Positions 1,788-40,162 of a stretch of 64,000 bases of DNA are shown here, piece by piece. The DNA lies in NCBI GenBank assembly GCA_902801985.1, contig CADCKD010000003.1, positions 1-64,000 on the forward strand, read 5' to 3'. The stretch is from an uncultured bacterium. Its GTDB lineage: Bacteria > Cyanobacteriota > Vampirovibrionia > Gastranaerophilales > Gastranaerophilaceae. The position numbers and the translations under genes are program-made. Within the stretch, counting starts at the first letter, position 1. Every line of letters starts with the position of its first letter. The notes under the pieces are model-generated. The model had not been told where the DNA came from and did not search any database. It saw only the letters and a program-made list of their open reading frames with translations.

Positions 1788-1788
1788 A

Positions 1789-2247: not shown

Positions 2248-2392
2248 TTAAAAATCCAATTGTAATTATCTTATTATAATTTCTTAAATATTCCTCATAG
2301 GTTAAAGTATTAAGTAGGCTGTATGAATAGCTGAGGGGCAGGGGAAAGATATACGAACCGTAATTTAGGTTCGCTCGAGATTTTTGCACCAA

Positions 2393-2985
2393 CTAATCTT
2401 CAGGATGTAATTTCTTTACCATACAACAATACGTTTGAACTTGTGTTTTTACACCTTCATTTATGCATTCTTTCATAAGATTTTTTAAATATTTTTTTTC
2501 ATACTGTCCCTTGTGATATTCAAAATAAAATCCGTCTAGAGATACTTTTTTAACGTCATCTCCTGCGGGCTCTCCAAAATCCCCGTCAAACTTTTCAGCA
2601 CTTTTTATTGTTACAAACTCTATATTTTTTATTCCTAAATCTGCATTATTAGACTTTGATTTAACGGCTTCTAATTTTTTATCCGAAATAAAGAATTTTA
2701 CATCTCTGATTTCGTCACTTAAATATAAGTAATTTTTTGATACGGATAAGGGCTTTTTGCTTTCAAATTCCCCAAGAGGATAAACAAAACCATTTTTTGC
2801 AAAATAATATATCAAAGCATGATCTGAATTATTATTTTCATTTACTTTGTCTGTAATTAGTAAAATACGTTCTTTGGATTTGCTTATTTTTTCAGTTGTA
2901 TAATAGTAATCTTTTGGGAATTCCTCTAATACAAGAGAATAATCAAAATAATCTTTTTTAGTATTGTACCGATCTATTATGGTAC
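2393..2985 (-). pseudogene. C-terminal part of a frameshifted secreted protein (continues 2977-4032)
   Basis: This frame is open from the A9 tract at 2986-2994 down to the stop at 2393, about 197 codons. The only candidate starts (for example a TTG at 2815) have no Shine-Dalgarno sequence. Adding one A to the tract fuses it directly to the upstream 351-residue protein, with no stop across the join (it then reads STIIDRYNTKKDYF). I therefore treat it as the C-terminal part of the same gene. The sequence is polar and unrecognised, ending CCMVKKLHPED. Function unknown. Confidence 0.65.
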
Positions 2986-4032: not shown

Positions 4033-4119
4033 TTAATAACTCCTCTCAAATATCATATAATTATGGTATCATTAAAAAAAAATAATAAACACACATAATA
4101 TTTTATAAATTAAAAGTAG

Positions 4120-4548
4120 GATCTGACTTATTTTGGACAAACAAAAGGAACAGAGATTGAAAAACAAATTGCTCAACTTGCAACAGGTGAAGCTGTCGGC
4201 GGAGCGATGTATTATGCTCTTGCAAAAGTTGCAAAAGAACAATTTGGTTTAGATGAAGTTGCAAAAGAATTTATTGAACTTGGAAACCAAGAAACAAACC
4301 ACGGAGCGTTTTATGCATCATTAAACGGGAGATATCCTTATGATGAAAAATCTTTCTGGCAAATGGTAAGAGGTCTATCTAAAGCAGAATATAAAGGGGA
4401 AGGTAATGTAAACCAAATTGCAGATAAACTTGAACAACTTGGAATTGATAAAAAAGCGGTTGAGCAAGTAAGAGAATCTGCGCTTCAAGAAAAGCATCAC
4501 GGAGAAAAATTCCTTTATCTATTTTGTCCATTATACACTAAATCGTAA
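4120..4548 (+). pseudogene. Rubrerythrin/ferritin-like fragment, truncated at both ends
   Basis: The frame (from GAT at 4120, or ATG at 4207) reads DLTYFGQTKGTEIEK, then GEAVGGAMYYALAKVAKEQ, then ELGNQETNHGAFYASL and ALQEKHHGE. These are helices with the E and ExxH di-iron ligands of the rubrerythrin family. An in-frame TAG lies directly before GAT, so the start codon is lost. After HHGE the sequence turns into an unrelated tail and stops. The usual C-terminal helix and rubredoxin-type Cys4 domain are missing. Internal sequence is well preserved, so the damage looks recent, perhaps from duplication of an intact copy elsewhere. Confidence 0.7.
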
Positions 4549-4587
4549 AATTTTATCACTTATTTTGCCATATAAACTATTAAAATT

Positions 4588-4616
4588 TTGCACATAAACA
4601 AATATAGGCATATAAT
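4588..4616 (+). promoter_or_regulatory. Promoter of cstA-type gene, leaderless arrangement
   Basis: TTGCAC (4588-4593), a 17-nt spacer and TATAAT (4611-4616) are followed by exactly 6 nt and the ATG at 4623. No Shine-Dalgarno fits, so transcription should start at or next to the A of the ATG. Confidence 0.65.
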
Positions 4617-4622
4617 GTTAAT

Positions 4623-6059
4623 ATGATTACATTTATTTCAGGCATAATAATATTAATACTTGGTTATATATTTTACTCAAAGTATATAGAAAGAACTTTT
4701 AATCCGGATGACAGGCCGACTCCGGCCCACAAATACAGAGACGACGTGGATTTTGTTCCAATGCCAAAAAATAGAAATGCGCTTATCCATCTTTTAAATA
4801 TTGCGGGGATGGGGCCTATTATTGGGGCAATTCAAGGGATCTTATTTGGCCCGATAGCTTTTATACTAATCCCTCTCGGTTGCATATTTGCAGGAGGAGT
4901 TCATGATTATTTTGCAGGTATGCTTTCTGCCAGAAATCGCGGAGCACAAATTACAGGTTTAATTCATGAATATTTAGGCAAAAAAGCTTTTAAAATTTTT
5001 ATGGTAATAGTTGCAATAATGTTGTTATTACTTGCAACGGTGTTTGTTTATACTGCAGGAGATCTTTTTGCGGAAAGATTTATGGGAGTAAAAGATTTTG
5101 TAATAACTGACCCGAAAGTATTAGGAACATATATTGTAATTCTTTCTTATTTTGTTATGGCAACTCTATTTCCGATTGATAAAATTATCGGGAAATTCTA
5201 TCCTGTTTTGGGATTGATGTTAATTATCGGGACGGGTTTTGTACTCGTTGGATTTATGATAAACGGAGTAAATTTGCAAAATTTAAGCCTGTCAAACTTT
5301 AATACACATCCAAACCATTTACCTCTGATACCGATGTTTTTTATGACTGTTAGCTGCGGACTTCTTTCAGGTTTCCATTCAACACAAGCGACAATAATTT
5401 CCAGAACTCTTGATAAAGAACAAGACGGAAGAAGAATTTTTTACGGAATGATGTGCCTTGAATCATTGATTGCAATTATATGGGCAGCAGCGGCAATGGA
5501 TGTATACAGTCTTAATCTTGTCCCTCAAAATATTATAGGAACAGTTAATGTTGTAAACATAATCGCAAACAAATTTGTTCCTCTAAATTTGGCATTTTTA
5601 GTAACGATAGCAATTATTATCCTCCCGATAACATCAGGGGACACAGCTCTGAGAGGTTTGCGTATAACAATAGCAGATGCGCTTAATCTTGAACAAAAAA
5701 ATATCCTAAAAAGATTAGTTATAGTAATTCCTATTGTTATGTGCGTTTTAGCAATACTTATATGGGCAAAAACAAATGCAAACAGCTTCTCCTTGATATG
5801 GAGATATTTCACATTCTTTAACCAACTGATTGCAATTCCGACATTATGTTGTGGTGCAATATTTTTAGCACGTGCAAAGAAAAATTATTTTGTAGCGTTA
5901 ATACCGGCTCTATTTTATGTATTTATAACAATGTCTTTTATTTTCAGCGAAAAAATAGGTTTTAACCTTCCGCTAAAAAATGCTGAAATTATTGGATTTG
6001 TTCTTACACTAAGCGTATTTATGTATATAATAAAAAAGATAAAGAGAAATAAAAAATAG
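4623..6059 (+). CDS. cstA: CstA-family peptide/pyruvate transporter
   Basis: The 478-residue polytopic protein has about a dozen hydrophobic segments. It carries the CstA signature near the N-terminus (YSKYIERTFNPDDRPTPA, then NAGMGPIIGAIQG-like and GVHDYFAGMLSARNRG) and a later SGFHSTQATIISRTL loop. CstA proteins import peptides or pyruvate across the inner membrane during carbon limitation. This is the short clade of about 480 residues, not the 700-residue enterobacterial form, so it lacks the C-terminal extension. The PHP gene follows 4 nt later and is probably cotranscribed. Confidence 0.85.
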   Translation: MITFISGIIILILGYIFYSKYIERTFNPDDRPTPAHKYRDDVDFVPMPKNRNALIHLLNIAGMGPIIGAIQGILFGPIAFILIPLGCIFAGGVHDYFAGMLSARNRGAQITGLIHEYLGKKAFKIFMVIVAIMLLLLATVFVYTAGDLFAERFMGVKDFVITDPKVLGTYIVILSYFVMATLFPIDKIIGKFYPVLGLMLIIGTGFVLVGFMINGVNLQNLSLSNFNTHPNHLPLIPMFFMTVSCGLLSGFHSTQATIISRTLDKEQDGRRIFYGMMCLESLIAIIWAAAAMDVYSLNLVPQNIIGTVNVVNIIANKFVPLNLAFLVTIAIIILPITSGDTALRGLRITIADALNLEQKNILKRLVIVIPIVMCVLAILIWAKTNANSFSLIWRYFTFFNQLIAIPTLCCGAIFLARAKKNYFVALIPALFYVFITMSFIFSEKIGFNLPLKNAEIIGFVLTLSVFMYIIKKIKRNKK

Positions 6060-6063
6060 CACT

Positions 6064-6900
6064 ATGACAAAATTTGATCTACATTTACATACAAATAATT
6101 CTGACGGAAGTGACACCCCACAAGAGCTATTACAAAAAATTGAAAACGAAAATATTGGAATTTTTGCACTGACTGACCACGATACCGTTGCAGGAATTCC
6201 TGCGATGAAAAAGCTACTTACAAACAAAATAAAATTTATACCCGGAATTGAACTTACTTGTAAAGCAAGAGATATTAAATGTCATATATTAGGCTACAAT
6301 ATTGACGAAACAAGCTCTACACTTTTAAATTTAATTGAGAAAGGTAAATTATTAAGGAAACAAAAGCTTGAAACAAGAATAAATTATTTAAAAGAAATAT
6401 GGAATATTGAACTGAACAAAGAAGAACTTGATTGGCTATATTCCAGAAAAAGCGTTGTCAAAACCCATATTGCAAATATTTTGGTAAAAAGAGGTCTTGC
6501 AGATAATAATATTGCCGCAATGAAAAAATATTTAGATGGCTGTAAAACAGGCAATACCCGCTTTGATGGGGAAGAAGCGATAAATACTATAAAAATTGCA
6601 GGAGGTGTACCTATATGGGCACATCCGCTTGGCGGGGAGGGCGAAACTCACCTTGATAAAGAAGAATTTTTACCAAGATTAGAAACAATGATAGATTGCG
6701 GAATTCAAGGGCTTGAGTGTTATTATTCAAGATACACAAATGAAGAAATAGAGTTCTTAAAAGACTGCGCAAATAAAAAAGGATTATTTATCACAGGTGG
6801 AAGCGATTATCACGGCACAAATAAAACTGTACTATTAGGACAGCTAAACGTAAATAACACCCCGATAGATTCAAAAGAACTAAATATTATTTTTCCCTAA
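6064..6900 (+). CDS. PHP-domain phosphoesterase (RNase AM / nucleoside 3',5'-bisphosphatase type)
   Basis: The 278-residue protein opens with FDLHLHTNNSDGSDTP (metal ligands His7 and His9), then LTDHDT near 37-42, GIELTC, and later WAHPLGG and GGSDYHG near 245-250. These motifs fit the YciV/TrpH branch of the PHP superfamily. Characterised members remove 3' phosphates from nucleoside 3',5'-bisphosphates and trim 5' ends of short RNAs. The gene starts 4 nt after the cstA stop and overlaps the convergent membrane gene by 14 bp. Substrate assignment is by family only. Confidence 0.8.
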   Translation: MTKFDLHLHTNNSDGSDTPQELLQKIENENIGIFALTDHDTVAGIPAMKKLLTNKIKFIPGIELTCKARDIKCHILGYNIDETSSTLLNLIEKGKLLRKQKLETRINYLKEIWNIELNKEELDWLYSRKSVVKTHIANILVKRGLADNNIAAMKKYLDGCKTGNTRFDGEEAINTIKIAGGVPIWAHPLGGEGETHLDKEEFLPRLETMIDCGIQGLECYYSRYTNEEIEFLKDCANKKGLFITGGSDYHGTNKTVLLGQLNVNNTPIDSKELNIIFP

Positions 6901-7816
6901 ACAAAACCATTGCACACGCACTTAAAATTGCGGCACCTATAAGAACTTCAAACGGAAATCTTATCAGTAGAGATTTATCCAATATCATTGGGATTAATAA
7001 AATTGCGCCGGCAGGCGGAAAATATATTTTTATTCTATCAAGTGCAAAAAACAAAATCGTACAAGCAAGAGCCGTACAAATAAATAACGGCAGTCCAAAA
7101 AATTCATTCAATAAAAGCCTTAAAGTACATCCTACAAAAGAAGCAAACGTCATAAGCCCTACAATATATAAAGGCTTCTCTCTTGCCGGACTTTTGGGAT
7201 TGGAAAGTTCAGTAAACATCACAATCAATGGAGGTGCAAGGAAATAAATTTGGTGAGTTTTAAATGGCAAAAGAGCAACAAGCCCGAAAACAATCAAAAG
7301 TTTTGACCATTTTATTACTTGTTTTTGAACCTCAAAATTACAAGGGACAAAACTATTTACAGGCCTAAAATGATATTTTTCCATAAGCCATTGAGCAAAA
7401 ATTATTATTAATGACATCAATGAAACAGATATAGGATATATCCAACTGCTTGTTCTCAAATAAACCGGTAATATACATGCGGAAATTATCGGTACAAAAT
7501 TTGTTTTAAATAATGTCAAAATAAAGCCGGTAAACGCAAAACACAGACATACCTGAAAAATTAAAGCCGTTGTACAATATTTTACAACCAACACCCCGAA
7601 TAAAGCCGCTAACGACATTAATATAAAGATACGTCTTTTATTGGTCATCCAAGGTTGCTGCTCACTAACCCACGCACCAATTGTAAGAGCACAAATTTCA
7701 GGGAAAATAATCTCTGACTCATGCGAAATTTCGGCAACAAATACCATCACAAATGCCATTATTATCCCAAAAAGATATCTCTCTATTCTAATTCTTTTTA
7801 ATACTTCGGCTTTCAC
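6887..7816 (-). CDS. Multi-pass membrane protein, HPP-like
   Basis: The protein of about 309 residues has eight or more hydrophobic segments. It contains a PPAGAILLIPMIL stretch reminiscent of the GAT-rich loop of HPP-family proteins, but I cannot confirm the family. I chose the GTG at 7816 because a TTGAAC-17-TATTAT promoter ends 6 nt before it. An upstream in-frame TTG at 7879 lies upstream of that promoter and has no ribosome site. It is divergent from the STAS gene and convergent with the PHP gene. A transport or membrane role is possible, with no specific substrate evident. Confidence 0.6.
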   Translation of the reverse strand: MKAEVLKRIRIERYLFGIIMAFVMVFVAEISHESEIIFPEICALTIGAWVSEQQPWMTNKRRIFILMSLAALFGVLVVKYCTTALIFQVCLCFAFTGFILTLFKTNFVPIISACILPVYLRTSSWIYPISVSLMSLIIIFAQWLMEKYHFRPVNSFVPCNFEVQKQVIKWSKLLIVFGLVALLPFKTHQIYFLAPPLIVMFTELSNPKSPAREKPLYIVGLMTFASFVGCTLRLLLNEFFGLPLFICTALACTILFFALDRIKIYFPPAGAILLIPMILDKSLLIRFPFEVLIGAAILSACAMVLFREK

Positions 7817-7822
7817 ACTTTT

Positions 7823-7851
7823 ATAATAAAATAACGTTAACAAATGTTCAA
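7823..7851 (-). promoter_or_regulatory. Promoter of HPP-like gene, leaderless arrangement
   Basis: On the minus strand TTGAAC (7851-7846), 17 nt and TATTAT (7828-7823) are followed by 6 nt and an in-frame GTG at 7816. This sets the start used for the gene. Confidence 0.6.
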
Positions 7852-7935
7852 CTGTAAATACTTTATATGCATGATACAATAAAAGAACAGATTATGAGAT
7901 AATGACGGGTGGTAAAAAATTAAGAGGTTCATGGA

Positions 7936-8250
7936 ATGGAAGTAACAATTAAAAGAATTGGCTTAGATGGTTTACATGTATCAGCTGCAGGCAGATTAGA
8001 CTTAGACAATGCGGTTGAATACGGCTCAAAAATTAAAGATTTTATTGAAGATAGTGAAGAACAAATAACAGAAGTTACTCTTGATTTTACAGAAATTACA
8101 TTCATTTCAAGTTTTGGCTTAAAAGTGATATTAGAATTATATAAACAACTTAAAGATCAAAATGGTTCAATAAAACTTAAGAATGTACCTGAACAAATCA
8201 AAAATTCATTTAAAATGGTTGGATTTGATAAATTTTTAGTATTTGAATAA
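7936..8250 (+). CDS. STAS-domain anti-sigma factor antagonist
   Basis: The 104-residue single-domain protein has the SpoIIAA/RsbV fold pattern: an AAGRLDLDNA strand-helix, then FTEITFISSFGLKVI around residues 51-66. Ser58/Ser59 sit where the kinase phosphorylates family members. The canonical Asp before the serines is replaced by Ile. It is translationally coupled to the phosphatase by a TAATG overlap, and the start has AAGAGG upstream. In this partner-switching design the phosphatase activates the antagonist, which then frees a sigma factor or another target. No sigma gene is in the window. Confidence 0.85.
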   Translation: MEVTIKRIGLDGLHVSAAGRLDLDNAVEYGSKIKDFIEDSEEQITEVTLDFTEITFISSFGLKVILELYKQLKDQNGSIKLKNVPEQIKNSFKMVGFDKFLVFE

Positions 8251-10586
8251 TGTTTAAAACAGTTAAATCAAAAATACTTGCAATAGCAGTAACAATACTG
8301 GCGTTCCTGATGCTTGCTTCGTTGTGCCATGTGTATTTTGCACGAATGAACACAAAGCAGCTTATGGTTCAAAATTACAAATTTTCAATAACCGCAAGCC
8401 CATTCATACAAGATATTAAAAGCAGAATCGTAAGTACGGAAGATAACCTTAAAAGCCTGTCACTAATCGGAAGTCTATATTATAAAACAGACAGGAGTAA
8501 TGATCTGACTGATAGGGTTATTACAAGAATTTTCGAAAATTATCCTCAGACCTTGGGCGGTGGGATTTGGTTCAAACCTTACATACTGGATAAGTCTAAA
8601 AAATATGTTTGTTTCTACGCATTTAGGGATAAAAATAATAAAATTGTAATTGACAGAAATTTTGAAAGCGAAAAATATGATTACCCAAATCAAGAATGGT
8701 ACAAGCAAATAATATCTCAAGTTACACCTGAGCGAAATATAGTATGGTCAAAACCGTATTATGAAAATCAAGGAAGTTACACGACCATGATAACTGCCGG
8801 CACGGGTATATATGTGGACGGAGAACTGGTCGGGATAGTAACCGTAGATTGGGAACTGGATTCTGTTATTGATGAAGTTTCAAAAATGAAACCTTTGGAA
8901 AAAACTTTTTCAATGTATAAAAAAGGCAACGAAATTAAAAACAGCTTTGTACTGTTTGGAAACGTAAAAGATGATTATGTAATTGCAACAAATGACCCGT
9001 ATCTGGATAATGATGCCGTAAGCGGGCACTCATTGAAAGAAATTCCTTGGTATACAAATGCCAATCATTTGTACAATACAACTTACATAACATACCATAA
9101 TAAAAAATATATTCCGTTTGTCAATAAACTAAAAAACGGAATGGTCGTAATAATTTGCCTTCCAAAATCCGGAATGTTCAGGATTGTTGACAAGTTTTAT
9201 ATCATTTTAATTTTGGCAATGCTCGGGATTGCATTGCTTATTCCTGCACTTTTATATTACAGTTTAAATCACTACATAATAAATCCTATTGATAAATTGA
9301 CAGAATTTGCCCATAAAATCGGTAAAGGGGAAGATATTCAAATAAAAATAGAAAAACCTGAAGAATTTGCACAACTTGCCTCAACATTTGATAAGATGAC
9401 AAAAGATATTAAATCAATTACTCAGGAAAGAGCAAAACTCAATTCTGAACTTTCTATCGCAAAATCTATACAGGCTTCAAGTCTGCCAAATGTTTTTCCG
9501 CCATTCCCGGAAAGAAAAGAATTTGACATATATGCTTCAATGGAACCTGCCAAAGAAGTCGGCGGAGATTTTTACGATTTCTTTTTCATTGATGAAACTA
9601 AATTTATGTTTTTAATCGCAGATGTTTCAGGTAAAGGAGTTCCTGCCGCATTATTTATGATGACAGTAAAAACACTTATAAATAACGTTTCACAAATGAA
9701 CTATTCTCCAAAACAGCTTATTGAAATTATAAATAACAAAATATGCCAAACAAATAAACAGGGGCTTTTTGTTACGGTGCTAATGGGAATAACAGATATT
9801 AACACGGGGGAAACAAGTATTATAAATTGCGGACACAACCTGCCGCTTATAAAAAGGCATAATGGGAAATATGAATACATGCAGCTGCAATCAAATATAG
9901 CTTTAGGTGTATTTGAAGATAGTGATTTTGAAATATATGAAACAACCTTAAATCCAGGAGATTTAATATATACCTACACCGACGGAGTAACAGAGGCCAT
10001 AAATGATAATAACGAAGTTTTCGGAGAAGAAAGACTCTGTGATTGTTTAAATAATATCAATAATACAATTCCGTCAGAAATTGCACAAAATGTAAAAAAT
10101 TCAATCAAAGAATATACTAATTCAAATATACAAAGTGATGATATCACAATGTTGATATATAAATATAATGGTTTATCCGACAATATAAAAACATTCAAGC
10201 AAACAGCTATTCAAGAGAATTATAATAAATTTTATAATTGGCTTCATTCAACTTGCAAAGAATGGAATATAAATGAAGAATTAACAAATAAACTTGATAT
10301 GTGCGCAGAAGAAATTTTTGCCAATGTTTCATTCTATGCTTACCCGCCAAAAACCGGAGATATTGAATCTATATTAACCTTAAAAGAAGATTGTATAATT
10401 TTTGAATTCAAAGACGAAGGCCTTGAATATAATCCATTAGAAAAACCTGATCCTGACATAGATTTACCACCGGAAAAACGTCCTATTGGGGGACTGGGAA
10501 TTTATATGGTCAAACAAATGGCAGACAGTATTTTCTATAAAAGAGAAAAAAATCAAAATATTTTAACTATGGTTTTCAAAATATAA
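8250..10586 (+). CDS. Membrane sensor PP2C-type (RsbU/SpoIIE) phosphatase with C-terminal HATPase anti-sigma domain
   Basis: The 778-residue protein has TM1 at about 9-30, a large extracytoplasmic dCache-like region to about 305, TM2 near 312-335 and a HAMP segment. The SpoIIE/PP2C domain (about 400-635) shows GGDFYDFF near 438, ADVSGKG near 457, TDGVTEA near 577 and DDITML near 630. The last 130 residues form an RsbW-like GHKL kinase module: EEIFANVSFYAY near 685, FKDEGLEYNP near 718 and GGLGIYMVKQMAD near 745. One polypeptide thus holds a sensor, the phosphatase and the opposing kinase, with its STAS substrate encoded just upstream. Confidence 0.88.
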   Translation: MFKTVKSKILAIAVTILAFLMLASLCHVYFARMNTKQLMVQNYKFSITASPFIQDIKSRIVSTEDNLKSLSLIGSLYYKTDRSNDLTDRVITRIFENYPQTLGGGIWFKPYILDKSKKYVCFYAFRDKNNKIVIDRNFESEKYDYPNQEWYKQIISQVTPERNIVWSKPYYENQGSYTTMITAGTGIYVDGELVGIVTVDWELDSVIDEVSKMKPLEKTFSMYKKGNEIKNSFVLFGNVKDDYVIATNDPYLDNDAVSGHSLKEIPWYTNANHLYNTTYITYHNKKYIPFVNKLKNGMVVIICLPKSGMFRIVDKFYIILILAMLGIALLIPALLYYSLNHYIINPIDKLTEFAHKIGKGEDIQIKIEKPEEFAQLASTFDKMTKDIKSITQERAKLNSELSIAKSIQASSLPNVFPPFPERKEFDIYASMEPAKEVGGDFYDFFFIDETKFMFLIADVSGKGVPAALFMMTVKTLINNVSQMNYSPKQLIEIINNKICQTNKQGLFVTVLMGITDINTGETSIINCGHNLPLIKRHNGKYEYMQLQSNIALGVFEDSDFEIYETTLNPGDLIYTYTDGVTEAINDNNEVFGEERLCDCLNNINNTIPSEIAQNVKNSIKEYTNSNIQSDDITMLIYKYNGLSDNIKTFKQTAIQENYNKFYNWLHSTCKEWNINEELTNKLDMCAEEIFANVSFYAYPPKTGDIESILTLKEDCIIFEFKDEGLEYNPLEKPDPDIDLPPEKRPIGGLGIYMVKQMADSIFYKREKNQNILTMVFKI

Positions 10587-10615
10587 ATTTACTCGCTTAT
10601 ATTATATTCATAATA

Positions 10616-11509
10616 TTATTTATGTTCATCCGGCACAATATTTGACTCAATATATTTTTGTATTTTTTCAAGATTAGTGCAGCAATCTTTTACCCCAACG
10701 TCATATATAGCTTGCAATTTATTCAAATTCTTTTCAACTCGCTGCATTTTAATTTTTTCACTTGGCCTTAGAGCAATAATTTTACCTTCTTTTTCGTATT
10801 TTCTTATTAAATCCAAAGTTTCATTGTAATTAATGTAAGCACTTTTTGCGGTTTTTATAAATTCAGGATATTTTTTATAAACTAAACCATACGGCATCCA
10901 TGATTTTGTTTTACTATAATCTGCCGGTTTTGTTTGAATTACAATTATTTTCTCATAACCCATATCAAGAGCTTTTTTTAATGGGATTGGATCAGCAACA
11001 GCGCCATCTAAATATTTATTTCCGTTAATTTCTACTAAATTTGATACAAATGGCATAGAGCCCGAAGCTCTTAAATATTCCAAATCTTTAGCGCCATCTT
11101 TTATCTCTACGTATTCAGCCTTACCGCTTTCAACATTTGTAACAACAGCGTAAAACTCTATTTTTGATTTATTATATGTTTCTATATCAAACGGGTCCAA
11201 TTCATAAACAAGCTTATTGAAACAGAAATCTCTGTTCATAACATCACCCGTGGTAATAAGAGAATACAAACCCATATACCTTTTATCCTGTGCATATTTT
11301 AGGTTATATCTTAAGGCCCTGCCTATTTGTTTTGATTTGTAATTTATTCCAAACAAAGCACCTGCAGAAACCCCTATAATAGTATCTACTTTTATATCGT
11401 TTTTCATAAAAACATCTAAAACACCAGCGGTGTATAAACCTCTCATAGCCCCGCCTTCTAGGACTAAAGCTACTTTTTTGCTATTTTTATTTGGAGTTTG
11501 ATTATTCAT
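10616..11509 (-). CDS. Patatin-like phospholipase
   Basis: The 297-residue protein shows the oxyanion loop GGAMRG at 19-24, the nucleophile elbow GVSAG with Ser48, and the DGA motif with Asp168, the catalytic dyad of bacterial patatins. It resembles the YjjU branch, predicted to hydrolyse membrane lipid acyl esters. No signal peptide is seen, so it is probably cytoplasmic or membrane peripheral. It has its own leaderless-type promoter and is divergent from the glycan operon. Confidence 0.85.
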   Translation of the reverse strand: MNNQTPNKNSKKVALVLEGGAMRGLYTAGVLDVFMKNDIKVDTIIGVSAGALFGINYKSKQIGRALRYNLKYAQDKRYMGLYSLITTGDVMNRDFCFNKLVYELDPFDIETYNKSKIEFYAVVTNVESGKAEYVEIKDGAKDLEYLRASGSMPFVSNLVEINGNKYLDGAVADPIPLKKALDMGYEKIIVIQTKPADYSKTKSWMPYGLVYKKYPEFIKTAKSAYINYNETLDLIRKYEKEGKIIALRPSEKIKMQRVEKNLNKLQAIYDVGVKDCCTNLEKIQKYIESNIVPDEHK

Positions 11510-11516
11510 AGGTAAT

Positions 11517-11545
11517 ATATTAAATCAATCTGCTAAAAATGCCAA
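11517..11545 (-). promoter_or_regulatory. Promoter of patatin gene, leaderless arrangement
   Basis: On the minus strand TTGGCA (11545-11540), 17 nt and TAATAT (11522-11517) are followed by 7 nt and the ATG at 11509. No Shine-Dalgarno is present. Confidence 0.55.
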
Positions 11546-11883
11546 AGTATTACATAATAATTTTTCCAAAGTTTTACAAAACATCTATAACTCTCAAGCC
11601 GACTATCCTACAAGCAAAATAATACTCTTATATTTAATATATCTTAATTATACTTTTATTATTAAACATCTTTGTATTAAAATAGATTGGATACAGTTTT
11701 AAAATCAACTATATAAATATAATTGTATTAAAGATATGAGAGAGATTATTGATAATAAAATCAATAAACACACTCACATTGAACATATTTTTTGGAATTA
11801 AGAGAAATTTTATTAGGGAATATATTAATTATTCAATATGATTATGACTTTTGAATCAAAAATTATACGCAGGATAGATAAAA
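11546..11883. other. AT-rich spacer upstream of the glycan operon
   Basis: About 340 nt without a supportable gene. It is very AT-rich and must hold the operon promoter. Only the ribosome site AGGATAG just before 11884 is clear. No tRNA or strong terminator hairpin was seen. Confidence 0.4.
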
Positions 11884-12813
11884 ATGATTAAACTAACTGA
11901 AAAAATATTTTCAATTACAGACTATAATGAGACCCATAAACAAATTACTATTCTGGGGCTAAAAATAAAATTCCCAAAAGCCGAATATATAAAACTGCAG
12001 CAAAATAAGGACTTTTACTATTACAAAAAAGCTAAAATCGATATTACTCAAATTCCGCCTGCAAAAGGACAAATAAGAGATATACAACTGGCCAATTTAG
12101 CTTTATTAAAAGAGCTTGATTATGTTTGCAAAGAAAGCGGGCTAAAATATTGGCTGGTTTTTGGTTCTTTATTAGGGGCCGTCAGACATAAGGGATTTAT
12201 TCCGTGGGATGATGACATAGATGTTGGCATGATGAGAAAAGATTATGAACAGATAATAAATTCTTTTAATAAATATTCAAGGAATACTGATATCTATGCA
12301 GAATATGTATATCAAGGGAAATCACAAACAATTATCAAAGTAAAACATAAAAAATGCCCATTTCTTTTTGTGGACATTTTCCCGCATGATTATGCAAATT
12401 CAATTGACACAAAAGAAAACCGAATTCTAAAGACGAAAAAACTAATTGAGTTGAGGAAAAGACTGAACAAAGATAAATCTATAGATAACGTAGAAAAAGT
12501 TCTTGGTAGAGTAAAAAAACTCAATTCAGAAATAATTCCGGATACGTATATAGAACAAAGCGATATACAATGTGGTTTAGAATATTCATACACAGAGCCA
12601 ATATGGGTTCATTCATACGATACAATATTTCCGCTTAAAGAAATATTGTTTGAAGACTTTAATGCAATGTGTATGAATAAACCTGAGCAATATTTGTCCG
12701 ATATTTATGGAAATTATATGGAATATCCGAAAAAATTCGGTTTTGGGCATAGCATGTATATGACTTTATCAGAAGAAAACAAACAACATATCAAAGAAAT
12801 TACAAAGGGATAA
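11884..12813 (+). CDS. LicD-family phosphotransferase 1
   Basis: The 309-residue protein carries the LicD core: LVFGSLLGAVRHKGFIPWDDDIDVGM (about 91-116), with the GS motif at 94-95 and acidic residues Asp109-111 and Asp113 of the nucleotidyltransferase-like fold. LicD proteins move phosphocholine, phosphoethanolamine or a related phospho-alcohol from a CDP donor onto surface sugars. An N-terminal segment TILGLKIKF at 22-30 precedes the core and recurs in two other operon proteins. It is the first gene of the operon. The next LicD begins 2 nt after its stop. Confidence 0.85.
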   Translation: MIKLTEKIFSITDYNETHKQITILGLKIKFPKAEYIKLQQNKDFYYYKKAKIDITQIPPAKGQIRDIQLANLALLKELDYVCKESGLKYWLVFGSLLGAVRHKGFIPWDDDIDVGMMRKDYEQIINSFNKYSRNTDIYAEYVYQGKSQTIIKVKHKKCPFLFVDIFPHDYANSIDTKENRILKTKKLIELRKRLNKDKSIDNVEKVLGRVKKLNSEIIPDTYIEQSDIQCGLEYSYTEPIWVHSYDTIFPLKEILFEDFNAMCMNKPEQYLSDIYGNYMEYPKKFGFGHSMYMTLSEENKQHIKEITKG

Positions 12814-12815
12814 AA

Positions 12816-13733
12816 ATGAAATTTTTTGAAATTACATATGACGAAAATACAATGCACAAAGTATATAATATATTGGGGATAAAAATTTCCCAAAAAGATA
12901 AAATGGGGATATTAAGGGCAGAAAAAGAGTATTTACGCAATGCTATTAATAAAATCGGAGCCGACAAAATGCCGCCTGCTACAGGAGAACTTCGACAATG
13001 GCAGCTTGAATTGCTCGAATTATTGAAAACATTTGACAAAATATGCAGAGAAAATAGCGTTCAATATTGGCTTGATTTCGGGACATTGCTAGGGGCAATA
13101 AGACACAAAGGTTTTATTCCTTGGGATGATGATGTTGACACAAGTATGCTAATTTCTGATTTAGATAAAATTCTACCGATATTAGAAGAATATTTTAAAA
13201 ATACAGACTTCATAATCAGAAAACGCGCACAAACCTGTAACAATTTTCAAATAAGAATACGTCACAAACAATACAACTTAGGCATAGATATTTTCCCTGT
13301 ATACAAATATCCGGAAAACAATTTGACAGAGGAAATAAGAAACGAAATTACAGAGAAAATAATTAAAGCAAGAAAAATTTTTGAAAAGAAATACAATTAC
13401 AAAAATATGCCTGAAACATTAAAAGAAAAAGCAATAAATGACATTACAACTATTCAAAATAGTATGATAATACCTCAAAATAAATGCATACCGGACAAAC
13501 CTATTTTGTTTCACGGCATAGAATTTCCATATGAAGAGGGGTATTATGTAATGCCTAATGATGAAATCTTTCCATTAAAAGAAACATACTTCGAAAATTT
13601 AAAATTGTACATTCCAAATAAATATGAACAATATCTATCAAATTTGTGGAAAAATTGGAATGAGATACCTAGTTCAATTTGTATTTTTGAGCATTACTAT
13701 AAAAATTATAAAAATAATTATGAGGAGGAATAA
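12816..13733 (+). CDS. LicD-family phosphotransferase 2
   Basis: A 305-residue paralogue of the preceding gene with the same plan: NILGIKISQK at about 18-27, then WLDFGTLLGAIRHKGFIPWDDDVD (about 85-108) with Asp104-106 and Asp108. GT replaces GS at residues 89-90, a conservative change in the active-site loop. Two adjacent, clearly diverged copies suggest two acceptors or two transferred groups. It overlaps the aminotransferase as TAATG. Donor chemistry cannot be read from the sequence. Confidence 0.85.
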   Translation: MKFFEITYDENTMHKVYNILGIKISQKDKMGILRAEKEYLRNAINKIGADKMPPATGELRQWQLELLELLKTFDKICRENSVQYWLDFGTLLGAIRHKGFIPWDDDVDTSMLISDLDKILPILEEYFKNTDFIIRKRAQTCNNFQIRIRHKQYNLGIDIFPVYKYPENNLTEEIRNEITEKIIKARKIFEKKYNYKNMPETLKEKAINDITTIQNSMIIPQNKCIPDKPILFHGIEFPYEEGYYVMPNDEIFPLKETYFENLKLYIPNKYEQYLSNLWKNWNEIPSSICIFEHYYKNYKNNYEEE

Positions 13734-14839
13734 TGGGTAAATTATTTACATGCGGTCCAGTACAGATGTATCCGAGTACCGCAACAATAAGAGCAAAAGG
13801 ATTTATACATTTCAGAACAACACAATATGGCGATATGGTAAAAGATACATTACGCAGGTTATCAAATTTGTTGGGGAACCACGAAGAATATGCAACCATT
13901 TATCTTGCTTCTTCCGGAACAGGCGCAATGGAAGCGACAGTTGAGAATTGTATGGGGATAGGTGACAAGGCTTTGGTTGTAAACGGTGGAGGATTTGGCA
14001 AAAGATTTTGCGAATTATTAAATTACCACAATGTACCATATGATTCTATAGATTTAAAATGGAATGAAGAACTTACGCAAGAGCATTTAAAACCGTATGA
14101 GAACAAAGGATATACTGCACTATTTGTAAATATGCACGAAACAACATCCGGTCAATTATATAATATGCAAATGCTTTCTGATTTTTGCAAAAGAAATAAC
14201 TTATATTTTATAGTAGATGCAATAAGCGCATTTCTTGCTGATGAATATAATATGGAAAAACTTGGTGTTGATTTAACAATAATAAGTTCACAAAAAGGTT
14301 TGTGCTGTTCTCCTGGATGCGCGATTGTATCCTTCAGTAAAAGAATGATTGATAAATTGTACAGTGATAATACATTAACACCATCAAAGTACTTTGATTT
14401 TAAAGACTACCTAAGAGGAAATATTGACAGAGGTCAAACACCATATACACCCCCTGTTTTAGTTATGTATGAAATTCAAGATATGCTTAATATGATTGAC
14501 AACGAAGGCGGTTTGAGCGGAAGACTAAAAATTGTGAAAGAAAAATGTGAATATTTTAGAGGAAAGGTAAAAGAAATTGGGCTTACAATTCCTGATTATC
14601 CTCTATCAAATATGATCACACCAATATGGTTTGAAGAAGTCAGCGCTTATGATGTTATTCAGGTTCTAAAAGACAAGTACGAGATGTATGTAAATCCTTG
14701 TGGAGGAGAACTGGCTACAAAACTATTGCGTGTATCACATTTAGGAAACACGAATCTATCTGATTTTGACGAATTGATAGAAAAAATTCAATTATCTGTT
14801 CAAGAAATTAAAGAAAAACAATTACAAGGAGTTTTATAA
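13733..14839 (+). CDS. Class V PLP aminotransferase (2-aminoethylphosphonate transaminase-like)
   Basis: The 368-residue fold-type I enzyme has CGPVQMYP at the N-terminus, ASSGTGAMEATVEN (59-72) for phosphate binding, VDAISAF with the PLP-ring Asp162, and SSQKGL with Schiff-base Lys188. This is the alanine-glyoxylate/PhnW branch. A strong GAGGAGG precedes the start. Placed before a TagD-like cytidylyltransferase, it probably makes an amino group on a small phosphorylated carbon unit (2-aminoethylphosphonate, or a serinol-phosphate-like compound), which is then CDP-activated. No PEP mutase or phosphonopyruvate decarboxylase is in the window, so phosphonate chemistry is unproven. Confidence 0.78.
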   Translation: MGKLFTCGPVQMYPSTATIRAKGFIHFRTTQYGDMVKDTLRRLSNLLGNHEEYATIYLASSGTGAMEATVENCMGIGDKALVVNGGGFGKRFCELLNYHNVPYDSIDLKWNEELTQEHLKPYENKGYTALFVNMHETTSGQLYNMQMLSDFCKRNNLYFIVDAISAFLADEYNMEKLGVDLTIISSQKGLCCSPGCAIVSFSKRMIDKLYSDNTLTPSKYFDFKDYLRGNIDRGQTPYTPPVLVMYEIQDMLNMIDNEGGLSGRLKIVKEKCEYFRGKVKEIGLTIPDYPLSNMITPIWFEEVSAYDVIQVLKDKYEMYVNPCGGELATKLLRVSHLGNTNLSDFDELIEKIQLSVQEIKEKQLQGVL

Positions 14840-15321
14840 TGATAGGGAACAAAACAGTAGTTTATACATCGGGAACATTTGATATGTTACATGTCAATCA
14901 TTTAAAAATGATTGAGTACGCAAGAGCGTTAGGGGATATTTTGATAGTCGGAGTCAATACAGATGAGCTTGTTGCAAGCTACAAGTCAACTCCGATAATC
15001 CCGTTTGAAGAAAGGATTGCGCTGATGAAGGCAATCAAAGGACCGGATATAGTTATTCCTCAACGTTCATTAGACCATACAGATAAAGTTGCTAAACTCA
15101 ATTTTGACATATTTGTAGTTGGGGATGACTGGGTCGGCAAATATGATTATTTGAAAGATATGGGAGTAGATGTAGTGTACTTCCCTTATGGTGCAGGTAT
15201 AAGTTCTTCGAGTCTGAAGAAAAGAATTTATAATAACTATAAAAAATTACAGGAAAAAGTGGACAACCATTTGCCTATTGATGCAGAAACCAAGGAGACA
15301 GGTAGTGCTTACCAAGAATGA
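14839..15321 (+). CDS. TagD-like cytidylyltransferase
   Basis: The 160-residue nucleotidyltransferase has the glycerol-3-phosphate cytidylyltransferase layout: TSGTFDMLHVNH (10-21), then a central GDDWVGKYD (95-103) and ISSSSLKKR (121-129). The HxGH motif reads HVNH, with Asn in place of Gly. It would activate a phospho-alcohol or phosphonate with CTP for use by the LicD proteins or the TagF domain. It is coupled to the aminotransferase by TAATG and overlaps the next gene by 17 bp. CDP-glycerol is the default product, and an amino-alcohol donor is a serious alternative. Confidence 0.8.
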   Translation: MIGNKTVVYTSGTFDMLHVNHLKMIEYARALGDILIVGVNTDELVASYKSTPIIPFEERIALMKAIKGPDIVIPQRSLDHTDKVAKLNFDIFVVGDDWVGKYDYLKDMGVDVVYFPYGAGISSSSLKKRIYNNYKKLQEKVDNHLPIDAETKETGSAYQE

Positions 15322-17632
15322 TAATTACAATTACAATATAGATTTAGTATATTTATGGGTTGATGGCAAAGATGCTAATTTTATTGCACAAAAAAAATAT
15401 TGGCAACAGCAAATGCATGTATCTCTTACTGAAGATACGAATAATGCTCGTTTTGTCGATAATGAAGAACTTAGATATTCCTTAAGATCTGTTGCAAAAA
15501 ATGCACCTTGGATACATAAAATTTTTATAGTTACAAACGGACAAGTACCTTCATGGCTTGATCCAACCAATCCGAAAATAAAACTTATTAATCTTAACCA
15601 AATAATGCCCAAAGAAGCATTACCAACATTCAACAGCTGCGCAATTGAATTTTGCATTCATAACATTCCTGAGCTATCAGAGCATTTTCTGCTCGCAAAT
15701 GATGATTGTTTTATAAATAAACCAATTAGCCCGAGTTTCTTCTTTGATAATAAAGGACGCCCTATATTCAGACTAAAGAAAGTACACATCACAAATAAAA
15801 GACTCTATGTAAGTCAATATGCCCGTTCTCTATATAATAGTTTTAAATTAATAAATAAAAAATATAATAAAAATTTCGAGTATATGGAACCTCATCATAA
15901 TATTGATGCATATACCATAAGCGGATGCCGTGATTGCGAAAAAGCGTTTTCAAAAGAATATAATGACGTTATAATGTCAAAATTTCGCAATGAAACAATC
16001 CAAAGGATAATTATTGCTCTATATCTAAAAATGCAGAAAAAAGCAACAATAAAATTAGTAAAAGACTGTGCATTTTCAATAAAAAGTGAGTCCGGTTATT
16101 TTGATATTTCTTCTTATAATTATATGATTAAGCAAATATTTTTTAAAAATCCGTGCCTTTTATGTATAAATGACGAACCGGGGGTACTGGACAATGAAAG
16201 AAAGGGATTTCGACTACTTTTAGAAAGCATTTACCCCGATAAACAATTATGGGAAAAAGATGAGGATAATATTGAATTAAAAGAAAAAGCAACAGAACTT
16301 TTAAAATCAAAAAGAAGTTTTTTAGTAAAAGAATTTATACGAATTTTCTTAAAAAATATTTTTTCAGTCGCAAATGACAGCATTGATGGTGTCCCTTTAA
16401 AAATAATTAAAATTTTGGGTATACAATTAAAAATTGATCTTCTTAACCGACGAAATATAGAAAAAAATTATGAAAAAATAATTAAAAAACTTAGAAAAAA
16501 AGTAAAAACACAAAAAATTAAAGTAGCCTTTCTGGTATCCGAAAACTCAAAATGGGGATATCAATCACTGTATGATTTATTTGCAAAATCAGATATATTT
16601 GAGCCTATTGTTTTAATAACATTACTAACAAGTGTACATGAGGGTCGTGATACTACCAGAAATAATACTCAAGAGAATTATGAATTCTTCAAAAACAGAG
16701 GAATGAATGTTGATTATCTTTACAAGAATAATAAATATAGAAGTTTAGAACGGTTTAAGCCGGATATTGTTTTTTATGAACAGCCTTGGGATATAGAAAG
16801 AAAATACAGACCGAGAGCAGTTTCAAAATATGCTCTAACAGCGTATTGTTCATATAGCTATGAAATTTTAGATGATACAGATAATTATTTCAATAATTTC
16901 CACGGATATTTATACAAATATTTTATAGAACACGAACTTAATCATAAAAGATATATCAATTACAGCTCACTGGCGGAGAACAATTGCGTAATTGTCGGAT
17001 ACCCAAAACTGGATGCATACTTAAAGCCAATGAAAGCTGTACATCCTGCGTGGAAAGAACCTGAAAAAATAAAAGTAATTTATGCTCCGCATCATTCATT
17101 TGATAATTCATTAAAACTTGCAACTTTTGATAAAAATCATGATTTTATTTTAAAACTTGCAAAATCTCATCCGGAAACGACATGGATATTCAAACCTCAT
17201 CCGAGATTAAAATTTGCACTTATGAAAATGAATCTTATGACAGAAGCAGAAATTGACAAATATTATGAAGAATGGGGGAAAATAGGAACAGTATACGCTC
17301 AAGGAGATTACATTGATATATTCAAATCATCAGATGCGATGATAACAGATTGCTTATCTTTTTTAGCAGAATATTTGCCATCACAAAAGCCATTAATAAG
17401 ATTAATTAATCCCGCATCAAAATCATTGAATGAACTTGGGGAAAAGGTTGTCAGTGAATATTACAAAGCACATAATGACAGAGAATTGGAAGAAATATTT
17501 AAAGAAGTAGTATTAAATAAAAATGATTATAACAAATCTCAAAGATACAATTTAATCAAAGAAATTTTTGACTCTAACAATTCTTCAGCATCAAAAATTT
17601 ATAATTATTTAAAAGAAAAGATTGAAAATTAA
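15305..17632 (+). CDS. Stealth-TagF fusion: putative polymer-forming phosphotransferase
   Basis: About 775 residues. The N-terminal Stealth domain shows CR1 (IDLVYLWVDG, about 12-21) and CR2 (DNEELRYSLRS onward, HFLLANDDCF near 122-131), the hexose-1-phosphate transferase family. From about residue 405 to 760 it turns into a CDP-glycerol glycerophosphotransferase (TagF) domain, with YAPHHSFDNS, FKPHPR and a SDAMITDCLSF segment near the C-terminus. The GTG start is chosen because AAGGAG sits 7 nt upstream, while ATG/TTG options at 15278-15283 lack a ribosome site. A linker motif ILGIQLKI at about 370-377 echoes the LicD proteins. No signal peptide is seen, so a cytoplasmic or membrane-peripheral polymerase is likely. 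Confidence 0.82.
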   Translation: MLTKNDNYNYNIDLVYLWVDGKDANFIAQKKYWQQQMHVSLTEDTNNARFVDNEELRYSLRSVAKNAPWIHKIFIVTNGQVPSWLDPTNPKIKLINLNQIMPKEALPTFNSCAIEFCIHNIPELSEHFLLANDDCFINKPISPSFFFDNKGRPIFRLKKVHITNKRLYVSQYARSLYNSFKLINKKYNKNFEYMEPHHNIDAYTISGCRDCEKAFSKEYNDVIMSKFRNETIQRIIIALYLKMQKKATIKLVKDCAFSIKSESGYFDISSYNYMIKQIFFKNPCLLCINDEPGVLDNERKGFRLLLESIYPDKQLWEKDEDNIELKEKATELLKSKRSFLVKEFIRIFLKNIFSVANDSIDGVPLKIIKILGIQLKIDLLNRRNIEKNYEKIIKKLRKKVKTQKIKVAFLVSENSKWGYQSLYDLFAKSDIFEPIVLITLLTSVHEGRDTTRNNTQENYEFFKNRGMNVDYLYKNNKYRSLERFKPDIVFYEQPWDIERKYRPRAVSKYALTAYCSYSYEILDDTDNYFNNFHGYLYKYFIEHELNHKRYINYSSLAENNCVIVGYPKLDAYLKPMKAVHPAWKEPEKIKVIYAPHHSFDNSLKLATFDKNHDFILKLAKSHPETTWIFKPHPRLKFALMKMNLMTEAEIDKYYEEWGKIGTVYAQGDYIDIFKSSDAMITDCLSFLAEYLPSQKPLIRLINPASKSLNELGEKVVSEYYKAHNDRELEEIFKEVVLNKNDYNKSQRYNLIKEIFDSNNSSASKIYNYLKEKIEN

Positions 17633-17648
17633 TAAAAGGTCCTTAATT

Positions 17649-18728
17649 ATGACAGAAAATATAAATAAGCATTTTTACAATATAGATTTTTTCAGAGTAT
17701 TTTTAATACTTGCGATAGTTCTGTTTCACAATAGAATTCATTTGAGTTATCTTAACTCTGATTTATACTCTTTTCTATATAATGCTTTTGGAAACGGCAG
17801 GAATGCTGTGGATGCATTTTTTGTTATTTCAGGTTTTTTCCTTATATTAACTTTTAAACCGGCACTATCTATTATCAATTTTATTAAGAAAAAATATATC
17901 AGACTCTCTCCTGTAATTGCGTTTTCCGTACTGCTTTGCACTTTAAGTTGGGCTATGGGTGCTACTGATTTTAAACTAATTCCTAATATTACTACTATAT
18001 TTTTATTAAACAGTTTTGGCAGATTTTGGTGCATCGGTTCAAATGTTGTATTATGGTATACTTCTGCCTTATTTTTTGGGCTGTTTGTTTTTTACTGCAT
18101 AAACAAATTTGTTGCGAAAAAATACATTTTTTCTGTTATTTTCTCAATTACATTCTTAAGCATATTATTACTTCAAATATTAAGGCACGGGGACTACGGC
18201 GGATACGATATTGTATTTTATCATATAATTTCAGTCAGCACACTACGTGCCTTTGCAGGGATAGGAACAGGGAGTTTAATTGCTTTGAGCTACAATAATA
18301 TATTAAAAATATCTGATACTTTCGGAGAAAAAATATTTTCAATTTTGGAAATTTTATGTTTCGGATTTATATTTTGGTGGATGTTCTGCGTACATAATTT
18401 TGTAAATCATTTTTATTTTCTGCTTATTTTCTCTATCTTATTTATATGTTTTTTGATTAAAAAAGGTATCTTGTCTACATATACAGATAAACCAATTTGG
18501 GCAAAATTAGGGAAATATACTTATTCAATATTTGTAACTCATTACATTATAATAAGAATACTTTATATGAAATTATGGAAAAATAACACTGAATTTGTAC
18601 AAGCTTATCCTTATATTCCAATATTTATAAATCTTTTTGCGGTACTACTCCTCGGTATCGTCACATATCATTGCATAGAAAAGCCTTGCACAAATATGTT
18701 ATCAAAAATAAAAAAGGAGAATAGCTAA
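17649..18728 (+). CDS. Acyltransferase family 3 (OafA-type) membrane protein
   Basis: The 359-residue protein has about ten hydrophobic segments. It starts with YNIDFFRVFLILAIVLFHNRIH, then NAVDAFFVISGFFL, the hallmark of acyltransferase-3 proteins with the histidine in the first helix. These enzymes O-acylate (often O-acetylate) surface glycans at the inner membrane. I place the start at ATG 17649, behind AAAGGTCC. An in-frame ATG at 17622 overlaps the previous gene. Position in the operon supports decoration of the polymer made by the neighbours. Confidence 0.8.
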   Translation: MTENINKHFYNIDFFRVFLILAIVLFHNRIHLSYLNSDLYSFLYNAFGNGRNAVDAFFVISGFFLILTFKPALSIINFIKKKYIRLSPVIAFSVLLCTLSWAMGATDFKLIPNITTIFLLNSFGRFWCIGSNVVLWYTSALFFGLFVFYCINKFVAKKYIFSVIFSITFLSILLLQILRHGDYGGYDIVFYHIISVSTLRAFAGIGTGSLIALSYNNILKISDTFGEKIFSILEILCFGFIFWWMFCVHNFVNHFYFLLIFSILFICFLIKKGILSTYTDKPIWAKLGKYTYSIFVTHYIIIRILYMKLWKNNTEFVQAYPYIPIFINLFAVLLLGIVTYHCIEKPCTNMLSKIKKENS

Positions 18729-19346
18729 ATGGACTTTAATTTTTTGTATAGATTATGCAACAGAGAAGATTTTTGCAGTTATATATTGAATAAATTGGCC
18801 AAAATTGGGACCTGTTATATTTTTAACAAGCAAGAACGAAGAAAGAAACGAAACATATTATATGATAAATTGAGAACTCAATTGTACGGTTATCAGGTTT
18901 TTAGAACAGCAAAAGAAATCGGAGAAGGTTTTTGGTGCGGCGGATTCTCAACAGTGAATAAGAATACCGTTTTAAAGAATAATGTTTGTTTTAATGGAAT
19001 GAGAATAATGGGTAATGGCAATGTAACAATCGGCCAATATTTTCACTCCGGAGTTGAGGTATTAATGATTACTCAAAATCACAATTATGATAAAGGGGAA
19101 GCAATACCTTACGATGATACATATATCTATAAAGACATAGAAATTGGCGATTTTGTATGGTTGGGTTCCAGAGTAATGATATTACCTGGGACAAAAATTG
19201 GAGAAGGTGCTATTATACAAGGGGGCTCTGTGGTACACGGAGAAATTCCGCCATACGCAATAGCAGGCGGTAACCCCGCAAAAGTATTTAAATACAGGAA
19301 TATAGAACATTTTGAAAAATTAAAAGCAGAAAAGAAATTCCATTAA
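18729..19346 (+). CDS. Left-handed beta-helix (hexapeptide) acetyltransferase
   Basis: The 205-residue protein has a helical N-terminus followed from about residue 80 by hexapeptide-repeat turns. QNHNYDKG with the likely catalytic His118, a YKDIEIGDFVWLG turn, and the C-terminal IPPYAIAGGNPAKVFKYR cap are typical of WcaF/CatB-like O-acetyltransferases using acetyl-CoA. Its ATG abuts the upstream stop. With the acyltransferase before it, two separate O-acyl modifications of the glycan are plausible. Substrate not determinable. Confidence 0.82.
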   Translation: MDFNFLYRLCNREDFCSYILNKLAKIGTCYIFNKQERRKKRNILYDKLRTQLYGYQVFRTAKEIGEGFWCGGFSTVNKNTVLKNNVCFNGMRIMGNGNVTIGQYFHSGVEVLMITQNHNYDKGEAIPYDDTYIYKDIEIGDFVWLGSRVMILPGTKIGEGAIIQGGSVVHGEIPPYAIAGGNPAKVFKYRNIEHFEKLKAEKKFH

Positions 19347-19365
19347 TAAAAATCACGAAAATTAT

Positions 19366-19968
19366 ATGAAAAAAATTGTTTGTTACGGAGATTCAAATAC
19401 ATTCGGATTTAATCCTAAAGAGGGTACAAGATATGACGAAAATACCCGCTGGACCTCTATATTGCAAAAAGAACTCAAAGGTGAATATCAAGTCATAAAT
19501 GAAGGAATGTGCGACCGAACAGGATTTGTTGATAACCCGAATGGTGTTTTATTTTCCGGTTCAAAACATTTCCCTGAATTTTTATCGCAATACGAAAATA
19601 TAGATATTTTGATTCTTTGGATTGGTACAAACGATTTGATGTACCAATATAATATTAGTTCTGAAACTATTGCAATTGGATTGGAAAATTTAATCAAATT
19701 ATCGCAAACAAAAGCACAAAAAATTATTATCATCCCGCCGGTAATATTACATGAGAATATACTAAAAGGATACTTTGGGGACAGATTTGACAAAATAAGT
19801 ATCAAAAAATCTGAAGAAGCAAGAATAATATATGAAAAACTTGCTCAAATGTATCATTGTAAATTCTTTAATGTAAATAAATTTGTAAAACCATCTGATA
19901 TTGACGGCTTACATTATGACAAAAACTCACATAAAATTATTGCAGAGAAATTAACTTCTCTTATCTGA
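19366..19968 (+). CDS. SGNH/GDSL-family hydrolase
   Basis: The 200-residue protein carries the four SGNH blocks: CYGDSNTFG with nucleophile Ser10, a glycine in the INEGMCD segment near 47, GTND (87-90) with Asn89, and DIDGLHYD with Asp180 and His183. Such enzymes remove O-acyl groups from sugars or lipids. No signal peptide is visible. At the 3' end of a glycan operon with two acyltransferases, an esterase acting on acylated intermediates is reasonable. It overlaps the convergent AsmA-like gene by 8 bp. No clear ribosome site is seen. Confidence 0.82.
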   Translation: MKKIVCYGDSNTFGFNPKEGTRYDENTRWTSILQKELKGEYQVINEGMCDRTGFVDNPNGVLFSGSKHFPEFLSQYENIDILILWIGTNDLMYQYNISSETIAIGLENLIKLSQTKAQKIIIIPPVILHENILKGYFGDRFDKISIKKSEEARIIYEKLAQMYHCKFFNVNKFVKPSDIDGLHYDKNSHKIIAEKLTSLI

Positions 19969-38990: not shown

Positions 38991-38992
38991 TT

Positions 38993-40153: not shown

Positions 40154-40162
40154 AGGTTAATT

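Follow-up and report, generated by a model that had tools for sequence, protein, structure and literature searches.

The locus described here raises the question of what a single enzyme would build when a Stealth-type hexose-1-phosphate transferase and a domain resembling the glycerophosphotransferase TagF are encoded in one reading frame. The window, that is, the whole stretch of 64,000 nucleotides analyzed, comes from a 2.1 Mb, 99.9% complete assembly of a Candidatus Gastranaerophilales bacterium. The protein is referred to below as Stealth-CT, after its N-terminal Stealth domain and its C-terminal (CT) domain. On balance we favor the view that it is a bifunctional, probably cytoplasmic or membrane-associated enzyme of phosphoglycan assembly, in which the Stealth half would transfer hexose-1-phosphate and CT would transfer X-phosphate, X being most likely an amino-alcohol. 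The preliminary description had placed both domains in one protein, and the fusion is genuine: a single open frame of 775 codons runs through the gene, and the opposite strand is rich in stops. The GTG start at 15305 was preferred over a longer TTG frame beginning at 15278 because a Shine-Dalgarno-like hexamer is placed 7 bases upstream of it. Coordinates are collected in Table 1. Elsewhere in the window, three consecutive DUF3137 proteins are encoded within an OEP/HlyD/MacB-type export cluster (37860-41284), and a 907-aa ORF (49189-51912) has no Pfam match at E 1e-4.

Table 1. Features of the Stealth-CT gene and its operon, in window coordinates.
Feature	Coordinates	Strand	Basis
LicD-family CDP-dependent phosphotransferase	11884..12813	+	Pfam; N-terminal IFSI...LGLKIKF motif
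LicD-family CDP-dependent phosphotransferase	12816..13733	+	PF04991, 116 bits
Class-V PLP aminotransferase, PhnW/AGXT-related	13733..14839	+	149 bits, PhnW-AepZ cut-off 360.8
TagD-like cytidylyltransferase, HVNH for HxGH	14839..15321	+	106.8 bits vs cut-off 165.4; aminotransferase-linked clade
Shine-Dalgarno-like AAGGAG	15292..15297	+	7 bases 5' of GTG 15305; sequence inspection
Stealth-CT fusion gene, 775 aa, GTG start	15305..17632	+	One open frame; Pfam, AlphaFold2 models
Stealth domain, residues 7-320	15323..16264	+	Pfam, alignments, fold comparison
Inter-domain junction motif IFSVANDSIDGVPLKIIKILGIQLKI, residues 352-377	16358..16435	+	Motif search
CT domain, GT-B fold, residues 403-775	16511..17629	+	AlphaFold2 model; PF04464 26.9 bits
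Acyltransferase_3 family membrane acyltransferase	17622..18728	+	Pfam
Hexapeptide-repeat acetyltransferase	18729..19346	+	Domain matches
GDSL-type esterase	19366..19968	+	Pfam

In a Pfam search with the whole protein, the N-terminal part matched Stealth_CR2 at 142 bits (cut-off 39.4, E 9e-42; residues 49-152) and Stealth_CR1 at 30.8 bits (cut-off 27.2, E 2e-7; residues 11-33), which bears out the earlier reading of these two motifs. The Pfam CR3 and CR4 models gave no match in Stealth-CT; alignments located the CR3 arginine and histidine (R228, equivalent to R419 of CpsY, and the invariant H198) and the CR4 motif CIND at residues 287-290. The domain was modeled alone with eight relatives (pTM 0.85), since in the full-length model the Stealth part had low confidence and was set aside. 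In VIA fold comparisons this model matched human GNPT alpha/beta with UDP-GlcNAc (9bgf) at Z 33.9 (rmsd 2.1, 290 residues) and CpsY (8j2n) at Z 30.3, the next-ranked structures falling to Z 12.6; VIA matches other than Stealth or TagF were not used for excluding families. When E305, N322, D324 or R419 of CpsY was mutated, activity fell 200- to 500-fold or was lost altogether (PMC10668966); in sequence alignments these residues correspond to E115, N132, D134 and R228, all invariant. H198 is part of PHHNID, a segment aligned with PHMPHMID in GNPT, and for the human enzyme His-956 has been proposed as the base (PMC11418123). By alignment and model, residues 7-320 are a complete Stealth domain in which every mapped active-site residue is kept and for which hexose-1-phosphate transferase activity is predicted.

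The CT model is a confidently predicted GT-B fold (AlphaFold2, pLDDT about 96). A search with the whole protein gave no match to PF04464 at E 0.01; with CT alone, PF04464 was the sole Pfam family above cut-off (26.9-27.3 bits, cut-off 22.1), and the match was confined to profile positions 156-290 of 367. A CT profile aligned by hhalign with TagF-like PF04464 proteins of the same order in the C-terminal half (P 99.0, E 7e-18), pairing the FKPHP segment of CT (H632) with RLHP, which carries the second catalytic histidine of TagF (H584, R/K-x-H-P). H632 is kept in 85 of 85 CT homologues and belongs to an invariant set that also comprises Y517, H596, D682, S685 and E689. The WHG motif, which supplies the catalytic base of TagF (H444 in S. 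epidermidis), was not seen among the aligned CT sequences; PF04464 proteins of the same order retain it, and they can be aligned with the TagF structure. Going by the strand order of the model, sequence alignment of the N-terminal half being unreliable, Y517 comes after the strand that precedes WHG in TagF. A CT alignment profile searched against PDB sequences returned no match up to E 10, and Epimerase_2 gave none up to E 10 in the CT domain of the fusion. In VIA comparisons CT matched UDP-GlcNAc 2-epimerase (Z 24.4), TagF (23.5), CroT (8a0c, 22.9), TarL (22.1) and Cps3D (21.7); since TagF and the 2-epimerases tie, the fold does not settle the function of CT. The earlier label of CDP-glycerol glycerophosphotransferase domain holds at the level of the superfamily and for a span of about residues 403-775, but not at the level of the family, the PF04464 match being weak and partial and WHG absent. 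Structure prediction, which it proposed as a check for two complete active sites, gave the folds of both domains; the Stealth site is complete, and CT has H632 but no WHG.

The CT domain occurs in 334 contig stretches of the species-level genome collection, and because of this recurrence, together with Stealth-CT proteins in at least three genomes, the second domain of the fusion is not a chance feature. Among 85 CT proteins, 63 are stand-alone, 12 are GT2-CT, two are Stealth-CT, one is Stealth-CT-GT2 and seven have another N-terminal extension. The three-domain Stealth-CT-GT2 protein (L075, 6852-10283) is 1143 aa long. RgpF-CT, Stealth-GT8, Stealth-DUF4422 and GT2-Stealth proteins are also found among the relatives, and at five loci a separate Stealth gene lies at most five genes from the CT gene. 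Because CT is also fused to GT2 or RgpF, the system is best described as modular. The fusion itself is rare, as only two of the 383 genomes of the order (its own and G048) contain end-to-end Stealth-CT matches. Stealth-CT proteins do not form one clade in the CT tree: the nearest CT to that of the fusion is the stand-alone L072, and L087 pairs with GT2-CT. A single origin of the Stealth-CT fusion was considered; the CT tree forces at least two changes, each of which may be a gain or a loss. A tblastn search with CT found nothing in phages and six distant matches in plasmids, and Stealth had one match in viral contigs.

No Pfam match was obtained at the junction between the two domains. A motif search found there an element of about 25 residues (IFS[IV]xN...HKVITILGIKLKF) that is present in 30 of 1332 ORFs and in none of the shuffled proteins. 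It stands at the N-terminus in LicD and TagF-like proteins, at the C-terminus in GT2 and Stealth proteins, and between the domains in Stealth-CT and GT2-CT; carriers include the fusion (16358-16435), the LicD protein at 11884-12813 and proteins at L127, L128, L130, L072, L079, L084, L090, L113 and L040. The element is perhaps a portable docking or membrane element.

Rather than alternating, the two halves could act at separate steps, with CT priming or capping a chain that Stealth polymerizes from hexose-1-phosphate, as Cps7A primes a capsule. Cps7A is a PF04464 enzyme with proven activity as a CDP-glycerol priming transferase and carries a tyrosine in place of the WHG histidine (PMC11666461); the missing WHG alone is thus no proof of a dead enzyme, and the invariant Y517 of CT stands just after the matching strand. 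The prevalence of single-domain CT proteins agrees with separate steps as well. Against this, CT is set beside Cps7A by published description and not by sequence, and we regard separate steps as somewhat unlikely.

The donor of CT was approached through gene context, using 79 CT loci from the species-level genome collection together with the 15305-17632 locus (80 in total). A cytidylyltransferase gene lies at most three genes away in 50 of the 80. These comprise 21 of TarI/IspD type, 14 of TagD type, 10 that are aminotransferase-linked or fused to PEP mutase and six of LicC type (one locus is counted twice). Cytidylyltransferases make up 52 of 439 near genes vs 5 of 523 distal genes (odds ratio 13.9, Fisher p 1e-13), where the p value is a guide that overstates independence because CT loci share ancestry. 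Some of the adjoining genes exceed curated cut-offs as D-ribitol-5-phosphate or glycerol-3-phosphate cytidylyltransferases, i.e. they are true TarI and TagD equivalogs. In one cluster (G016/L024, L088) a complete CMP-phosphonate pathway stands beside GT2-CT, and the G016 aminotransferase is a real AEP transaminase (460.7 bits). On Vibrio alfacsensis plasmids a CT homologue adjoins a phosphocholine cytidylyltransferase. Since three unrelated activation families converge on CT, which is the strongest evidence available, CT is read as a CDP-X phosphotransferase whose X changes from locus to locus; with H632 retained, this is its most likely function.

Two of these neighborhoods deserve description in their own right. 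The L024 cluster (1018-12972) encodes a PEP mutase-cytidylyltransferase fusion, a fusion of a TPP enzyme with an alcohol dehydrogenase, an AEP transaminase, a LicC-like protein, three LicD proteins and GT2-CT, and its product is likely a phosphonate-decorated glycan. L118 (6109-9586), L126 and L141 carry CT genes in tandem, of which the second is extended at its N-terminus by 160 residues that have no Pfam match; TagD follows.

The same context weighs on a different assignment, in which CT would be an ordinary GT-B glycosyltransferase with a nucleotide-sugar donor and the protein would make one glycosidic and one phosphodiester bond, like the GT-A/TagF-like polymerases with roles swapped. The tie between UDP-sugar enzymes and TagF in fold comparison, the absence of WHG, whose histidine TagF-like enzymes need, and the 30 loci of 80 without a cytidylyltransferase at most three genes away are all consistent with it. 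However, CDP-activating genes of three unrelated families are strongly associated with CT, PF04464 is the one Pfam family to pass its cut-off in CT, and Epimerase_2 scores 15.1-23.5 bits in CT relatives, below its cut-off of 30.6. We judge a nucleotide-sugar donor unlikely.

What X would be at the present locus can be approached from the operon. Stealth-CT is the fifth of eight genes in a tightly packed plus-strand operon (11884-19968), in the order LicD, LicD, class-V aminotransferase, TagD-like cytidylyltransferase, Stealth-CT, acyltransferase, hexapeptide acetyltransferase and GDSL esterase. The cytidylyltransferase fails to reach the cut-off of the TagD equivalog TIGR01518 and has HVNH in place of HxGH. 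Together with eight other HxNH enzymes (at L073, L074, L079, L087, L092, L093, L094 and L123; at most 91% identity between genomes) it forms a supported nine-member clade (98/96), every member of which adjoins a class-V aminotransferase. The clusters of this clade contain LicD in most cases and an acetyltransferase or methyltransferase in several. These sequence features suggest that X is probably not glycerol here. The preliminary description had taken the upstream gene for a TagD that supplies CDP-glycerol to the second domain, and neither the gene assignment nor the donor was supported. True glycerol-3-phosphate cytidylyltransferases do adjoin the CT relatives at L118 and L135, which makes CDP-glycerol the probable donor of some CT proteins, and a second TagD-like gene lies elsewhere in the genome, but with no cytidylyltransferase above the TagD cut-off in the 99.9% complete genome and the adjacent enzyme placed in the aminotransferase-linked clade, alternation of hexose-1-phosphate with glycerol-phosphate fed by that gene is quite improbable for the fusion.

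The most likely X is an amino-alcohol, which may be N-acetylated, carried as a CDP-amino-alcohol that might derive, for example, from glycolaldehyde phosphate or triose phosphate. The aminotransferase was also considered as an AEP transaminase; this candidate was rejected, as its score falls far short of the cut-off (Table 1) and no PEP mutase (PepM) was found in the genome. Because the genome is without PEP mutase, X is not aminoethylphosphonate made by the PEP mutase route.

In the pathway that we propose, an amino-alcohol phosphate would be formed by the aminotransferase and then activated with CTP by the TagD-like enzyme. From the resulting CDP-X the amino-alcohol phosphate would be transferred by CT, by the two LicD proteins or by both; the two LicD proteins could also be the sole users of CDP-X. 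The Stealth half would use a UDP-sugar, with the sugar itself also conjectural, to place hexose-1-phosphate onto a growing glycan with release of UMP. CT would transfer X-phosphate from a CDP-activated small phosphate ester with release of CMP, as gene context and the pyrophosphate-binding histidine suggest. Fusion would couple the two consecutive transfers and yield a repeat with two phosphodiesters on one enzyme. A complete Stealth domain joined to a CT domain in CDP context is best read as the preliminary description proposed, with one chain forming phosphodiesters by two activities. Neither a flippase nor an export gene nor an acceptor-making glycosyltransferase is encoded in the operon, which counts against the proposed reading. 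By analogy, alternating polymerization by both domains is plausible. More tentatively, and as a possibility rather than an expectation, Stealth-CT may be a single polymerase that makes a phosphodiester at every junction, from Stealth hexose-1-phosphate and CT (acetyl)amino-alcohol phosphate, CT then representing a wider WHG-less CDP-X family in which X (glycerol, ribitol, phosphonates, amino-alcohols) would be set by the adjoining activation genes.

The fusion comes from gut bacteria of the Cyanobacteria/Melainabacteria lineage that have not been cultured, and it is one of a set in which Stealth, GT2, RgpF and CT modules are swapped. The invariant tyrosine and two histidines of CT, together with a CDP-activating neighborhood, offer a testable rule for the phosphate ester on a surface glycan, and the cassette of HxNH cytidylyltransferase and aminotransferase points to an uncharacterized CDP-amino-alcohol.

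A partial literature search found no published description of a Stealth/TagF-like fusion. Single chains with several active sites have precedents in the TagF-like capsule polymerases (PMC5974469) and in Bcs3 (PMC10299916). The capsule polymerases CslB, Cps1B and Cps12B (GT-A/TagF-like) and Cps3D and Cps7D (TagF-like/GT-B; PMC5974469) likewise join a TagF-superfamily phosphotransferase to a second transferase, and the analogy drawn earlier with multidomain capsule polymerases fits, as CT is also fused to GT2 domains. The GT2-CT relatives (GT-A + GT-B) parallel the published GT-A/TagF-like architecture; they have a GT-A partner, so that the combination of TagF-like domain and glycosyltransferase in one chain (Litschko 2018) is found in them and not in Stealth-CT. 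Modular capsule polymerases of pathogens combine a phosphotransferase with a glycosyltransferase, whereas Stealth-CT pairs two phosphotransferases; in addition, its CT lacks WHG and no TPR domain was found. CslB is without similarity to Stealth (PMC5974469). Bcs3 of Haemophilus influenzae b (CroT-CrpP-CriT; PMC10299916) is likewise a multi-enzyme polymerase, and its CroT matches CT in fold, but CroT is joined there to a phosphatase and a PRPP-dependent transferase and not to Stealth. Among single-domain enzymes, Cps7A is a GT-B CDP-glycerol transition transferase, likened to CT by description only. The LicD-type transferases (Cps7C, FKRP), two of which are encoded in the operon, use CDP conjugates with a nucleotidyltransferase fold unrelated to CT. 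CpsY and GNPT alpha/beta share the fold and active-site residues of the Stealth half, from which Stealth-CT differs by the CT fusion. The pairing of two phosphotransferases is uncommon, and it falls within the known kind of modular phosphoglycan polymerases.
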